From Calidifontibacter indicus (lineage in GTDB: Bacteria; Actinomycetota; Actinomycetes; Actinomycetales; Dermatophilaceae), in the NCBI RefSeq assembly GCF_003386865.1, contig NZ_QTUA01000001.1, positions 124,001 through 188,000 on the forward strand: a DNA stretch of 64,000 nucleotides. The letters are read 5' to 3'. A program made the translations under genes and the position numbers. This document shows, piece by piece, positions 1 to 8,985 of the stretch; positions within the stretch are counted from its first letter, which is position 1, and each line of letters begins with the position of its first letter. The notes below the pieces were generated by a model that ran no database searches, was not told where the DNA came from, and saw nothing but the letters and a program-made list of their open reading frames with translations.

Positions 1-2084
1 GCCTCGGCAACGTCCAGATCGGCCCACGACACGAAGGAACCAAGCCGCGAGAAGGCCTCCTGCCGCACCTGGATCTCGTCGCGCTGCGCCGTCAGCCTTG
101 CAAGCTCGGCTTCCAGCTCGACGTGACGACCCTCCAACTGCTCCAGGTCACCGCGCAGCGCCGCAATCTTGCGCTCGTTGGCCCAACCGAGCACCCATCG
201 ACGCGGGTCGTCGACCCGGTGCCGGTCGTCTTTCTCATGCCGGTCGCCCGAGCGCACTTGCCCCTGCCGGGTGACCGCACGATCGGCGGCGCGGAACTCC
301 TCCAGGCTCCAGGCACACAGGTGATCAGCTCGTCGGATCAACTGGTTACGCAGGTAGCCCTCGAACGCCCCTTCCCGGATCTCCAGGCAATCACCGAGCA
401 ACAGTTGTTCGCCGCTGCGGCGCTGCAACGGCACCTGCCGGGTTGGCACCCGCTCGTACACCAGCCGTGCGCCCCGCGCCTGTCTCCCGCGTCCGGCGAA
501 GGTCAGTCGGCGCCCGTTGACCCAACGGGTCACGTCGTCGTAGTGCTCGGTGGGCACCAGCAGCGAAAGTGCGAAGCCCCGCAGCACTCGTTCGGCGGCG
601 CCGCGCCACTCGCTGTGCTCCTCGAGCACGTCGAGCAATTCCCCGGCGTAGGGCAGGTCGTGTTCGGTGAGGCCGAGATCGGCGCACAATTGAGCGCGCA
701 GCTGGAACTGCTCGGTCGGCAGGTTGCTGGTGCGCCCCTGCAGGTCGTCGAGCTCGGCACGCACCGCGGCGGCCTGTGCGGTGATCTCCCGATCAGCGCT
801 GATCGCGTCGGCGACGGCCGCATCGAGCTCACGCTTCTGGGTCGCCAACTCTGGTCGGCGCTGCGCCAGAAGTGTTGTCAGCTGCGAAAATTCATCCCTC
901 GAATTGATCGGGTCGAGCCCCGCTTCGGCCACGGCGCCGTCGAACTGCCCCCGGGAGCGCTGTCGAGTCTCTGCTTGGGCTCGCGCTTCTCGAGCGAGCC
1001 GCTCCAGCTCACCGATCCGGTCGCCTCCGGCCCGCGCACGTTCCTCGATCAATTCCTCGCGTGCGGAAGCCAGGCTCGACTGCTGGGCTTTCGCGTCGTC
1101 ATGTTCGCCCGACAACCGCTGACCGTCGGCATCGAGCCGTTGGATCTCAACAGTGAGGAGGTCGCAGCGCAGTCGGGCCATGAACAGTCCCACCGCATCG
1201 CGCTCACGCTCCAGCTCGGCGCGATCAGCCTGTGTCTTGTCGTACCGCGCAGTCGTATTGGCCACCGGCTCGAGCGCTTCCAGCTGAAGCCGCGCGCGGC
1301 GCACCGCGTCATGGGCCTTGGTCAGGTCGCCGAAGTGATCGATGATGTCGCGCAGGTGAGCGCTCGCGTCGCTGGGTTCGAGCATGTGGTCACGCACGAA
1401 GTCGTTGAGGTTGCCGACCGACTTCATCGACACCGTCTGGTGGAACAACTCCAGTGCCTGGTCCGACGGGATGCCGAGCAACCGGCGTAGGGCGGTCGCG
1501 TATTTGGGGAAGTCGTCCCACACGTCCGCACCGCCGGCCCGCAAGCGCTTGCGCAGATCGCGCAGGTCAGAGCCGAAGTCGGTGAAATCGGTAGCGATCG
1601 ACAGCGCCTTGGTGGCGGTCACATAGAAGCGGTAGGGCTGCCCACTGCTCTCGCGCTGCTGAAACACCTGCGCCAGGGTGACAGTCTCGTCGTAGCCCTC
1701 GTTGGTGAAGACCGCCAACACCACGGAAAAGCTGCGACGGCCCTCGCGCAGTCCCTTGGCCCGGGTGTGACCGGTGCTCTCGATCCGCTCCGACTTGTAA
1801 TGGCCCTCGACGTACGAACGCAGCGTGCGTTCCTTCGACTCGGCGCCGGCCGCCTTGTTGTAGGCCACCTTATGCGCCGGCATGAGCAGCGTGGTCAGCC
1901 CGTCGACCAGCGTCGACTTGCCGGAGCCGATGTCACCGGTCAGCAAGGAGGTCTCGCCGCCGGGTGTCAGGCGCCACACCTGTCGATCGAAGGTGCCCCA
2001 GTTGAGTACTTCGAGCTGGCGCAAGCGATAACCGGCGCCCTCGCTCGACGAGAGTTCGAGCGTGGAGAAGAGCGCGTCACTCAT
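1..2084 (-). CDS. jetC: Wadjet JetC, SMC-like ATPase (partial, cut by left edge)
   Basis: The frame starts at an ATG overlapping the jetB stop by 8 nt and stays open to base 1, giving about 694 residues. A Walker A motif GDIGSGKST lies near residue 45. After it come long charged, heptad-like stretches typical of a coiled coil, and a conserved block RRWVLGWANERKIAAL near the visible end. This is the arrangement of JetC/MksF-like SMC ATPases (about 1,100 residues), so the second coiled-coil half and the signature/Walker B region lie outside the window. In the family, JetC dimers with JetA and JetB extrude loops on small circular DNA so that the JetD nuclease can cut it. Family call strong; function is by family. 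Confidence 0.88.
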   Translation of the reverse strand, partial: MSDALFSTLELSSSEGAGYRLRQLEVLNWGTFDRQVWRLTPGGETSLLTGDIGSGKSTLVDGLTTLLMPAHKVAYNKAAGAESKERTLRSYVEGHYKSERIESTGHTRAKGLREGRRSFSVVLAVFTNEGYDETVTLAQVFQQRESSGQPYRFYVTATKALSIATDFTDFGSDLRDLRKRLRAGGADVWDDFPKYATALRRLLGIPSDQALELFHQTVSMKSVGNLNDFVRDHMLEPSDASAHLRDIIDHFGDLTKAHDAVRRARLQLEALEPVANTTARYDKTQADRAELERERDAVGLFMARLRCDLLTVEIQRLDADGQRLSGEHDDAKAQQSSLASAREELIEERARAGGDRIGELERLAREARAQAETRQRSRGQFDGAVAEAGLDPINSRDEFSQLTTLLAQRRPELATQKRELDAAVADAISADREITAQAAAVRAELDDLQGRTSNLPTEQFQLRAQLCADLGLTEHDLPYAGELLDVLEEHSEWRGAAERVLRGFALSLLVPTEHYDDVTRWVNGRRLTFAGRGRQARGARLVYERVPTRQVPLQRRSGEQLLLGDCLEIREGAFEGYLRNQLIRRADHLCAWSLEEFRAADRAVTRQGQVRSGDRHEKDDRHRVDDPRRWVLGWANERKIAALRGDLEQLEGRHVELEAELARLTAQRDEIQVRQEAFSRLGSFVSWADLDVAE

Positions 2085-2655
2085 CGTCGTCACGTTTGCC
2101 TGCGTACTCGCGAAGCTTGCCGGCGAAATCGGACATGGTCTGCGCGTCGACGTACGCCTTGAGAATGCGTCGCACCTCCCATTGGTCGCGCTGCCCGCGT
2201 AACGGCCGCAGGAATCCGAGCTCGGCGGCTTTGCGGATCGTCGTCTCGGCCTGGTCGACCAGCCGCGCCTCGTTGGTGGATTCGGTGCCGAACACGCGCA
2301 GCAGGTCGACCAATTGGTCGGTGGTCAGCACCAGTCGGGCGTCGGAACTGCTGGTCTCGAACTCGATGAGCCGTTTGCGCAGCAGCACCAGCAACAGGCT
2401 GACCTGGTAGGTCAGTGCGCGTCGACGCACCAGGCGCGGCAACGGGTCTTCGCCTTCCTGGTCGGGTCGCGACACGAGGTAGGCGAAACCCTCGTTGTCG
2501 TCGATCACCACGTCGAGGCCGATGGTTGCGAAGTGATCCCGCACCGCGGGGCCGAAGCGTCCGAGAGCCTGCCAGGTCGACTCGTCGGACTCCTTGTAGA
2601 CAACGCCTTGCATGAGCCGAATGATCGCGGCGCCGGTGTCGTATTCGTCGGTCAT
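2077..2655 (-). CDS. jetB: Wadjet JetB, DUF4194 protein (MksE-like)
   Basis: A 192-residue acidic protein matching the DUF4194 family in size and character. It has a YLVSRPDQEGEDPLPRL stretch, a hydrophobic helix around YQVSLLLVLLRKRL (about residues 83-96), and a C-terminal winged-helix-like region containing AAELGFLRPL and WEVRRILKAYVDA. Its ATG overlaps the jetA stop by 4 nt and its own stop overlaps jetC, so the three genes are translationally coupled. In Wadjet and MksBEF complexes this subunit is the KITE-like partner bridging the kleisin-like JetA and the ATPase heads. Confidence 0.87.
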   Translation of the reverse strand: MTDEYDTGAAIIRLMQGVVYKESDESTWQALGRFGPAVRDHFATIGLDVVIDDNEGFAYLVSRPDQEGEDPLPRLVRRRALTYQVSLLLVLLRKRLIEFETSSSDARLVLTTDQLVDLLRVFGTESTNEARLVDQAETTIRKAAELGFLRPLRGQRDQWEVRRILKAYVDAQTMSDFAGKLREYAGKRDDDE

Positions 2656-4094
2656 CGACGCCTCACCGTGACCTGGGGTAGCCGGACTCGCCGCATGACA
2701 CTCGAGTCATCGGGGTCGGGGTAAACAAGAGTCGTCTCCTGCGCAAGGTCCATCTCGATCGTCACCTCATCATCCTGCAGTGCCAGGTAGCCGACGATCT
2801 CGGCGATGCCTTGCTCGATCGGATGCGCCGCGACGATATCGGCGAGCAGAGCCGACGAACGCGGCGGGATCTCGTCACGCACGTTGGCCAGCAGCCGCGC
2901 ACTGTCGACGTAGGTCTGCGCGAACAAGAGGGTCGGGTCGACATCTTCCGTAGCGGTGGTGACCGAAGAGTCGACCTCGACGGCGACGGGCGGTTGGTAC
3001 AACGGGCGCTCGAACGGCAGGAGGATGTCGATGCCCGGCACGGTGACCTCCAGGCCCACCGCGGGCGGGCGCTCACGCACATCGAGGGCTGCCGCTTCGA
3101 TCGAGCGGACGAGGTCGAGCACCCTGCGGTTCTCCAGCCACACCTGATCGTCGAGAAACCTGCGCAGTTGCTCGGAGAGCCGCCGCACCGTGCGCTGGGT
3201 GCGCTCGGCCGCTTCGGACCAGTCGTGATGGACGCCGGAGATGCGCGCGTCGGCGTCGGCAATGTCGAGCGCGGACACCTTGGACAGCAGCTCACCGAGT
3301 TCCTCCTGGCGCTGCGCAGAGAGCAGGAACTCATAGAACGCCTGAAAGCTGCGCCCCTGATCGGAACCGCTGATCTGCGATCTGGTGCCGATGAGTTCCC
3401 CCAACAACTCGCCCTTGGAGCCGTCCCACGCCGCGATCTTCTCCCGAGCTGCCCGGTCGAGCTGGCGGAAGTTGTCTTCGACCTCGCGGAAGTCGGCCAG
3501 CAGGTCGCGCGCAGTGGCGGCCAACTGCTGGTACCGGTCGCGCACACCAGCACTGTCGAGCACCTCGACCCGTCCCGCTTCGACATCGGCGATCTCGGCG
3601 TCGATCTCGGCGCGGCGGCGCTGGAGCTCGGCGAGCCGCGCCTGCGGGTCGGCCTCGGTGCCGTGCACGATCTGCCGCAAGAGATCCACGACCGTGTGCA
3701 GACGCGATTCGGTGCCGACGAATGCGCGGCGGCCCAGCGATGTCACCCACGAGTAGGCCTTCTCGAACGCCGGCGTCACCTCGTAATGGATCTCGTCGTC
3801 GTCGGGCGGGTAGAAGCGGCGCAGGTAACCAGCTGCGGGAGCGGACCAGTCTTCCAGGTAGGAGACCGGGTCTTTGGGAAAACGCACGCCGTCGCCCTCC
3901 GCGGCGACGGTGGCGTTGAGGGCGTAGAGGCGGTCGTCCAACGCACTGGCAACCTCGCCGGCCGGGGTGGCACCACGATTGCCGTCGGCGAAGAATTCAC
4001 CGAGAAACGACAGCGCGAGGCTCGCGTTGCCGGCTCGCAGCAACCGCCACGCGGCGTGCCGCTCGCGTAGTGCCTCGATCTCCTCGTAGTCCAC
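2652..4094 (-). CDS. jetA: Wadjet JetA, DUF3375 protein (MksF/kleisin-like)
   Basis: 480 residues from a GTG start (VDYEEIEALRERHAAWRLL). The frame is open further upstream, but the DUF3375 family begins with just such an ALRxxHPAWRLL block and is about 480-500 residues long, so the GTG is preferred. No good ribosome-binding site is visible before it. Residues 1-120 look like a winged-helix/N-terminal domain, about 140-330 are charged helices, and the C-terminus carries hydrophobic beta segments ending RVRLPQVTVRRR. It is first in the jetABC operon. In the family it acts as the kleisin-like subunit of the complex. Confidence 0.87.
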   Translation of the reverse strand: MDYEEIEALRERHAAWRLLRAGNASLALSFLGEFFADGNRGATPAGEVASALDDRLYALNATVAAEGDGVRFPKDPVSYLEDWSAPAAGYLRRFYPPDDDEIHYEVTPAFEKAYSWVTSLGRRAFVGTESRLHTVVDLLRQIVHGTEADPQARLAELQRRRAEIDAEIADVEAGRVEVLDSAGVRDRYQQLAATARDLLADFREVEDNFRQLDRAAREKIAAWDGSKGELLGELIGTRSQISGSDQGRSFQAFYEFLLSAQRQEELGELLSKVSALDIADADARISGVHHDWSEAAERTQRTVRRLSEQLRRFLDDQVWLENRRVLDLVRSIEAAALDVRERPPAVGLEVTVPGIDILLPFERPLYQPPVAVEVDSSVTTATEDVDPTLLFAQTYVDSARLLANVRDEIPPRSSALLADIVAAHPIEQGIAEIVGYLALQDDEVTIEMDLAQETTLVYPDPDDSSVMRRVRLPQVTVRRR

Positions 4095-4140
4095 GGCGCG
4101 ATCGTACGTGCGTGGTGCGACAAGGCCCGCTCGACTGTGG

Positions 4141-5061
4141 CTACGGGGCGGCGTCGACCCCCACGGCTCGCGCCGGCGTGCTGCTCGCCGCTTCGAACAC
4201 GTCGTCGACCGGGAGCCCGACCTGCTCGATGCACCAGTCGACGCAACCGGAAAGCGTGGTGGTGCTGCCGGCGATCGAGCCGCCCTCGGTGAGCCGGGCG
4301 ACGTTGTCGATGACCTCGACCGCGAGTTCGCCGATGCGGTAGGGGCCATCGGCGAGACCGGTGGCCGACATCGCGTCCGACACCAGCACGATGGCCTGCG
4401 GGCCGACCGTCTCGAAGACCATCCGCACCACCTCGGCATGGACGTGCACGCCGTCGGCGATGAGTTCGACCAGCGCTTCACCGCGTGCCGCCGACGTGAG
4501 CGCCGCGGCGACCGGGCCGCCGGCGCGGTGGTGCATCGGCGGCATTCCGTTGAACAGGTGGGTCACCAGTGCGGGTCGGCCGCTGCGCTCCACGACGTGG
4601 CCGATGGTCGCGGTCACGGTGGCGGCGTCGGCATCGGTGTGTCCGATCGCGGGGGTGATGTCGTGTGCGACGAGGGCATCGACCAGAACCTGCGCACCCG
4701 GACGTTCGGGCGCAAAAGTCATCTGCCGCAACACTCCCGGTGCGCCGGCGACGTCGACGAGGCGGTCGATCAGAGCCGGGTCGGGGTCGGTCAGCACGCC
4801 CGGGTCGTGGGCGCCGCGGCGTTCGTGCGACAGGAACGGGCCCTCCAGGTGGATGCCGGCGACGGTGCCGTCGGCCACCAGCGGTGCGAGCGAGCGCACG
4901 GAGCGTTCCATCATGTCGGGGGTCCCCGAGACGAGGCTGGCCAACATCGTCGTCGTGCCCGCGTCGCGGTGGTGGGCGGCCGCGATCCGATTGCCCTCGA
5001 CGCTGCCACCGAACTCGTGGCCCAACGCGCCGTGGCAGTGGATGTCGAACAGGGGCCTCAT
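4141..5061 (-). CDS. nagA: N-acetylglucosamine-6-phosphate deacetylase, short form
   Basis: 306 residues, amidohydrolase fold. The metal-site motif FDIHCHGALG is at residues 6-15, HLEGPFLS near 98-105, an IGHTDADA block in the middle and VTHLFNGMPPMHHR (substrate and metal ligands) near 170. It would remove the acetyl group of GlcNAc-6-phosphate to give glucosamine-6-phosphate. It lacks the roughly 50-residue N-terminal beta-sandwich strands of the usual 380-residue NagA, and no upstream in-frame extension is apparent. It lies 21 nt after the thiamine ATPase gene and may share its transcript, though no functional link is evident. Confidence 0.85.
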   Translation of the reverse strand: MRPLFDIHCHGALGHEFGGSVEGNRIAAAHHRDAGTTTMLASLVSGTPDMMERSVRSLAPLVADGTVAGIHLEGPFLSHERRGAHDPGVLTDPDPALIDRLVDVAGAPGVLRQMTFAPERPGAQVLVDALVAHDITPAIGHTDADAATVTATIGHVVERSGRPALVTHLFNGMPPMHHRAGGPVAAALTSAARGEALVELIADGVHVHAEVVRMVFETVGPQAIVLVSDAMSATGLADGPYRIGELAVEVIDNVARLTEGGSIAGSTTTLSGCVDWCIEQVGLPVDDVFEAASSTPARAVGVDAAP

Positions 5062-8861: not shown

Positions 8862-8892
8862 CGGATCCTCCTCGGGATGCAAGGAGGGGCTC

Positions 8893-8985
8893 GACTTCCT
8901 ACACCGGTACTAACCGGATCAGGTTCGAGGGTCTGCGGCCCTCTGCCGCACTCTCAGCGCACCGTGCGCTCCCCTGTCGTTTCCA
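8893..8985 (-). promoter_or_regulatory. TPP riboswitch (THI element)
   Basis: Read on the minus strand, the segment has the hallmark TPP aptamer blocks in order: GGGGAGCGC, then CTGAGAGTGCGG, then ACCCT, then GAACCTGATCCGGTTAGTACCGG and GTAGGAAG at the 3' end (quoted in parts). It lies about 30 nt before the TTG start of the binding-protein gene. TPP binding would reduce expression of the uptake operon. The ribosome-binding site is close enough for translational sequestration; I see no clear separate terminator. Confidence 0.95.

Follow-up and report, generated by a model that had tools for sequence, protein, structure and literature searches.

Type I Wadjet systems extrude DNA loops and cut circular DNA below about 50-100 kb (PMC10586767), and in Clostridium a Wadjet system restricts conjugated plasmids (PMC12287153). 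Most work on them relies on recombinant expression in other hosts. In mycobacteria, the LexA-independent DNA-damage response acts through RecA-NDp/P1 promoters with the consensus tTGTCRgtg-8 nt-TannnT (PMC5656591), which are activated by PafBC (PMC6789036, PMC11804915). The activator of PafBC is single-stranded DNA (ssDNA) as short as 6 nt, with no need for free ends, and both PafBC binding and ssDNA activation at such promoters have been shown structurally in mycobacteria (PMC11804915).

Here, the DNA analyzed is a 64-kb stretch (the window; G000:C1:124001-188000) of a complete two-contig actinobacterial genome. As judged from its sequence, jetABCD (= mksFEBG), which crosses the left edge of the window, is a complete type I Wadjet operon with protein machinery of a known kind. 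The features at the locus, in window coordinates unless another contig is named, are as follows:

G000:C1:121538-122689 (= L004:7538-8689), left of the window, minus strand: jetD, 383 aa, DUF3322 and JetD_C toprim nuclease
1..2084, cut by the window edge and ending at G000:C1:122686, minus strand: jetC, MukB/SMC-like ATPase
2077..2655, minus strand: jetB, 192 aa, DUF4194/MksE, KITE subunit
2652..4094, minus strand: jetA, 480 aa with a GTG start, DUF3375, MksF/MukF-like kleisin
4101..4123, minus strand: PafBC-type (RecA-NDp/P1) promoter, TTGTCGCAC-CACGCACG-TACGAT, matching tTGTCRgtg-8 nt-TannnT
4141..5061, minus strand: nagA-like gene on the right flank, upstream of the cassette; syntenic in a genome of the same genus (G001), where it adjoins the thioesterase gene without jet genes

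The original prediction, made from the window, had read three minus-strand frames as jetA-jetB-jetC in the type I order, with overlaps of 8 and 4 nt, and had expected jetD just past the left edge; each of these points is borne out. The frames give PADLOC scores far beyond chance (JetA1 E=1.9e-189, JetB1 3.7e-100, JetC1 0), as well as Pfam matches to DUF3375 for JetA (5e-136) and to DUF4194 for JetB (5e-43), the latter protein being also matched by Pfam MksE. The sequence to the left carries a gene with DUF3322 and JetD_C domains that overlaps jetC by 4 nt, and the predicted assignment to type I stands, with JetA1, JetB1, JetC1 and JetD1 as the best PADLOC models for all four proteins and the type II and III models far weaker or absent; NCBIfam yielded nothing useful for the jet proteins. 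In addition to the 4-nt overlap between jetA and jetB, there is one of 8 nt between jetB and jetC when ATG 2084 is taken as the start of jetC (1132 aa). The homologues favor this start, and L046 among them has the identical overlap; a GTG start at 2093 would give 1135 aa. The ATPase motifs of JetC are intact (Walker A GDIGSGKST, signature SGGQKEKLAYT, Walker B FRFAVIDEAFGRG), and so are the toprim residues of JetD, namely the metal-binding Glu (VVENE), the D-x-D (WGDIDTHG) and the E-x-E (LEQER), of which the LEQER pair is conserved in every aligned relative.

The genomic surroundings point to a chromosomal acquisition. On the right, the nagA stop at window 4141 lies 46 bp upstream of jetA on the same strand; on the other flank, a distance of 69 bp separates the end of a thioesterase-like gene (L004:7469) from that of jetD. 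In G001 the nagA and thioesterase genes are adjacent without jet genes (L043 12607 and 12638), and at the corresponding site in a second genome of the same genus (G002) the thioesterase gene is accompanied by thi transporter genes, with nagA and jet both missing; the cassette, including jetD, is thus absent from both same-genus genomes checked. JetD occurs patchily in the family (28 of 186 genomes), and the nearest relatives, about 60-70% identical, carry the identical four-gene set at sites elsewhere, with none of the tested flanking genes beside their jet operons. These different sites point to horizontal movement of the cassette as a four-gene unit. Neither a tRNA nor an integrase nor any other mobile signature was detected next to the cassette, in agreement with the lack of a neighboring mobile element noted in the original prediction, and the genes on its flanks are chromosomal ones, conserved in both G001 and G002. 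A possible terminator hairpin in the gap separating jetD from the thioesterase gene was rejected, since it folds no better than shuffled sequences (z -0.17).

Several further observations concern the same region and its counterparts. The interval from the kinase gene to the thioesterase gene holds a copper-type P-ATPase and further genes in both same-genus genomes (L043 9483-11729, L044 8866-11091) but not here, so that the neighborhood of the jet site varies. Upstream of nagA, a TPP riboswitch (window 8879-8985, minus strand, 63.8 bits) precedes thiamine transporter genes. In a related genus, an insert splits the jet operon between jetB and jetC (G017, L047 1798-5270; G070, L073 6653-14331). 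The inserts carry a MazEF-like pair and a permease, to which that of G070 adds a HipA-like pair and a reverse transcriptase of a group II intron; the two share pieces at 87-94% identity, and neither genome has an unbroken jetC frame.

A common TTGTCG-N11-TANNNT emerged when the jetA upstream regions of the nearest relatives were compared. At the present locus it reads TTGTCG-N11-TACGAT, with the -10 element ending 6 nt before the jetA GTG, which is a leaderless layout; the site fits the tTGTCR and TAnnnT parts of the mycobacterial consensus, and the weaker gtg part reads CAC. It is the sole match of the relaxed pattern on the minus strand within the window. Scanning for standard sigma-70 promoters gave nothing ahead of jetA, because the -35/-10 spacing used in such a scan is unsuited to PafBC promoters. 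With a probability of roughly 0.8, we take jetABCD to have a PafBC-dependent (RecA-NDp) promoter and a leaderless mRNA, which would place the operon in the LexA-independent DNA-damage regulon.

The rest of the genome agrees with this reading. Within 3.6 Mb, the strict pattern TTGTCR-N11-TANNNT has 28 sites, the one at jetA included, and the reversed pattern has 3; for the relaxed pattern, the corresponding counts are 66 and 11. Directly behind strict sites, NCBIfam identifies recA, uvrA, uvrB, recR, radA, mfd, pcrA, polA, dnaE and dTMP kinase genes, to which reading of the frames adds rpsF, clpX, a DnaQ-like exonuclease and RecB-like nucleases. Neighboring genes at C1:2300930 and 2301901 encode PafC (PF19187 E=1.4e-41) and PafB (PDB 9fnd E=1.1e-56); next come tatA- and tatC-like genes, an arrangement shared with other actinobacteria. 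Because the motif marks the expected repair regulon, jetABCD is, on sequence grounds, a member of the LexA-independent DNA-damage set.

Among the other sites in this genome, five are nearly identical to one another (TGTCGGTGGTCG[CT]ACATATGTT; G000:C1:917431, 1083373, 1483628, 2250281 and 2782327). The gene behind one of them (L085) and that at 1706479 (L087) look like a repeated 13E12/HNH-type family, although the pieces tested had no Pfam match; a multicopy gene family controlled by damage would merit attention. Strict sites also precede an OLD/RecF-type AAA ATPase (L088, G000:C1:1764297), a DEAD/DEAH helicase (L086, 1639679) and a RecB-like nuclease (L092, 2280718), which are possible additional defense or repair genes of the PafBC regulon.

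Across Actinobacteria, jetA upstream regions were gathered from the order, the class and named plasmid records; a query of named contigs with JetC as single protein had given only one named relative. After removal of duplicates and non-actinobacterial sequences, the sample comprised 165 distinct upstreams of 130 bp, 62 of which contain NTGTC-N12-TANNNT (36/121 in the order set, 27/49 in the class set) and 103 of which lack the strict motif. These 62 are sequences rather than independent events, and kinship within families inflates the counts; the specificity of the spacer and the spread over families are independent of relatedness and hence unaffected. Every spacer from 4 to 26 other than 12 gives 0 or 1 hit, Markov shuffles of the 165 upstreams give a mean of 0.24 and a maximum of 2, the opposite strand has the motif in 0/121 (order set), and other same-strand windows of the same loci have it in 4/4,241. 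Moreover, the columns not used for selection match the consensus, with a purine after TGTC in 50/62 and then G in 48/62 (p ~1e-11). One group of 20/62 sites lies at -29, -30 or -31, the leaderless position at which transcription would begin at the start codon.

Hits fall in at least 18 families, 10 in the order and 8 in other orders, a count that leaves out a further hit at -127 in one more family of the order. Plasmid-borne copies, two from Streptomyces and one from Arthrobacter, have the motif too, and it is kept where the genes upstream of jetA differ strongly. It is commoner where JetA shares at least 40% identity with the present one (38/54 operons) than below 40% (24/111). The motif is missing throughout one genus and in most members of two others, and it was not found before jetA of Nocardia farcinica; it is also absent from the copies of Thiodictyon, Sphaerotilus and Cupriavidus, three non-actinobacterial upstreams that are too few for a conclusion. 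The same switch before jetA in many actinobacteria suggests that plasmid defense would be wired to the DNA-damage alarm.

As PafBC is activated by ssDNA, DNA damage probably induces the Wadjet system, as incoming conjugative DNA may do too. In the scheme that we propose, PafBC would bind ssDNA that arises through damage, at resected breaks, during rolling-circle replication or by conjugative entry, the last being an attractive source, and would let the housekeeping RNA polymerase initiate at jetA and so raise JetABCD; JetABC would then extrude loops on DNA circles, and JetD would cut those small enough for full extrusion (below roughly 50-100 kb). The cut ends may, via resection, yield more ssDNA and thereby a positive feedback. 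Loop extrusion, cleavage and the activation of PafBC by ssDNA are carried over to this organism from published relatives, while induction of jet, conjugative ssDNA as a trigger and the feedback loop are proposed steps. We give about even odds to the broader proposal that actinobacterial type I Wadjet is an inducible defense under the ssDNA sensor PafBC, in which ssDNA from conjugation, plasmid replication or cutting raises JetABCD.

The second contig of the genome (G000:C2, L019-L022; 72,943 bp) is very probably a circular plasmid, since a short-chain dehydrogenase frame spans its joined ends. It carries a relaxase, a T4SS coupling protein, ParA, a ParB-like protein and a type I restriction system, and neither the strict nor the relaxed scan found a PafBC-type site on it. 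A circular plasmid of 73 kb, a size that borders on the limit of 50-100 kb reported for cutting (PMC10586767), thus coexists with a complete Wadjet operon, so that Wadjet activity in this organism stays putative.

Several alternatives were weighed. The operon could be an ordinary constitutive type I Wadjet whose TTGTC-N12-TANNNT is a housekeeping -10 with a chance TGTC upstream: expression is taken as given in most Wadjet literature, many sampled operons lack the strict motif, and the gtg part is missing at the jetA site itself. Such a coincidence would, however, have to recur at spacer 12 only (62 hits against 0-1, with 0.24 in shuffles), bring unselected columns into agreement with the PafBC consensus and mark recA, uvrA and uvrB in this same genome, and we regard it as improbable. 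Damage induction might instead run through another main regulator or signal, or through read-through from nagA, with ssDNA not being the trigger. ClgR has been reported to recognize and bind the P1 motif and affects repair genes (PMC5656591), and nagA lies just upstream on the same strand; yet it is PafBC whose binding and activation by ssDNA at this class of promoter have been seen structurally in mycobacteria (PMC11804915), and the motif persists next to quite different upstream neighbors, which leaves this alternative doubtful.

A housekeeping MksBEF condensin serving chromosome segregation rather than defense, a case to which the Pfam MksE match of JetB might be thought to speak, is hardly credible and was rejected; the original prediction had named it as a case that would refute the Wadjet reading. 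Here jetD is present with intact catalytic residues, the genome encodes a separate housekeeping Smc (C1:1696630-1700139), and jetD is missing from both same-genus genomes and scattered over the family. It is a tentative possibility, to be taken more seriously, that induction by damage mainly serves DNA repair or the clearing of excised circles (prophages, integrative elements), not incoming plasmids. The partners of jetABCD in the regulon are repair genes, and DNA damage is the time when integrated elements excise as circles. Against this, every type I system tested acts on plasmids (PMC10586767, PMC10123090, PMC12287153), and plasmid defense under PafBC control is the reading that we retain.

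The machinery was already known, whereas a PafBC-type promoter before Wadjet appears to be new. Within the open-licence part of the literature, we found no report linking PafBC to Wadjet/Mks, also among papers on Wadjet together with LexA/SOS, DNA damage or mitomycin, and one may exist elsewhere; the only paper there that names both PafBC and Wadjet has as its subject BrxR, a different WYL regulator. A conserved damage promoter before jetA in at least 18 families is concrete and can be tested cheaply. If the proposal is true, the innate anti-plasmid system and the DNA-damage response would form a single circuit in which ends made by JetD provide positive feedback; the damage promoter would also explain how a sequence-blind nuclease stays low until foreign or damaged DNA appears. 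By the same logic, the stress of electroporation or conjugation may itself trigger plasmid destruction when actinobacteria are transformed.

Compared with the type I JetABCD systems of E. coli GF4-3 and Pseudomonas (PDB 8as8, 8q72, 8dk2, 7til), the operon has the identical four-gene order, and JetC, JetA and JetD align with most of the length of the solved chains, with ATPase and nuclease motifs kept; solved relatives were matched for JetC, JetA, JetB and JetD (MksG). It differs from them in its distant sequence (JetC phmmer E about 1e-46 to 1e-52) and in its promoter, which is of the actinobacterial PafBC type. The best match of JetD is MksG of C. glutamicum MksBEFG (PDB 8b7f, PMC10123090; E=7.8e-28), both systems being actinobacterial type I. 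At the position of MksG Tyr258, the proposed nucleophile in C. glutamicum (PMC10123090), this JetD and its two nearest aligned relatives (L046, L047) have Phe, whereas others have Tyr; the residue would therefore be dispensable, or not the nucleophile, in this branch. Within the open-licence literature on the mycobacterial PafBC/RecA-NDp regulon (PMC5656591, PMC6789036, PMC11804915), no paper was found to list Wadjet or Mks among the regulon members; the promoter layout described there is the same as the one before jetA, in a genome that encodes both PafB and PafC and whose repair genes, including recA and uvrA, carry the motif.
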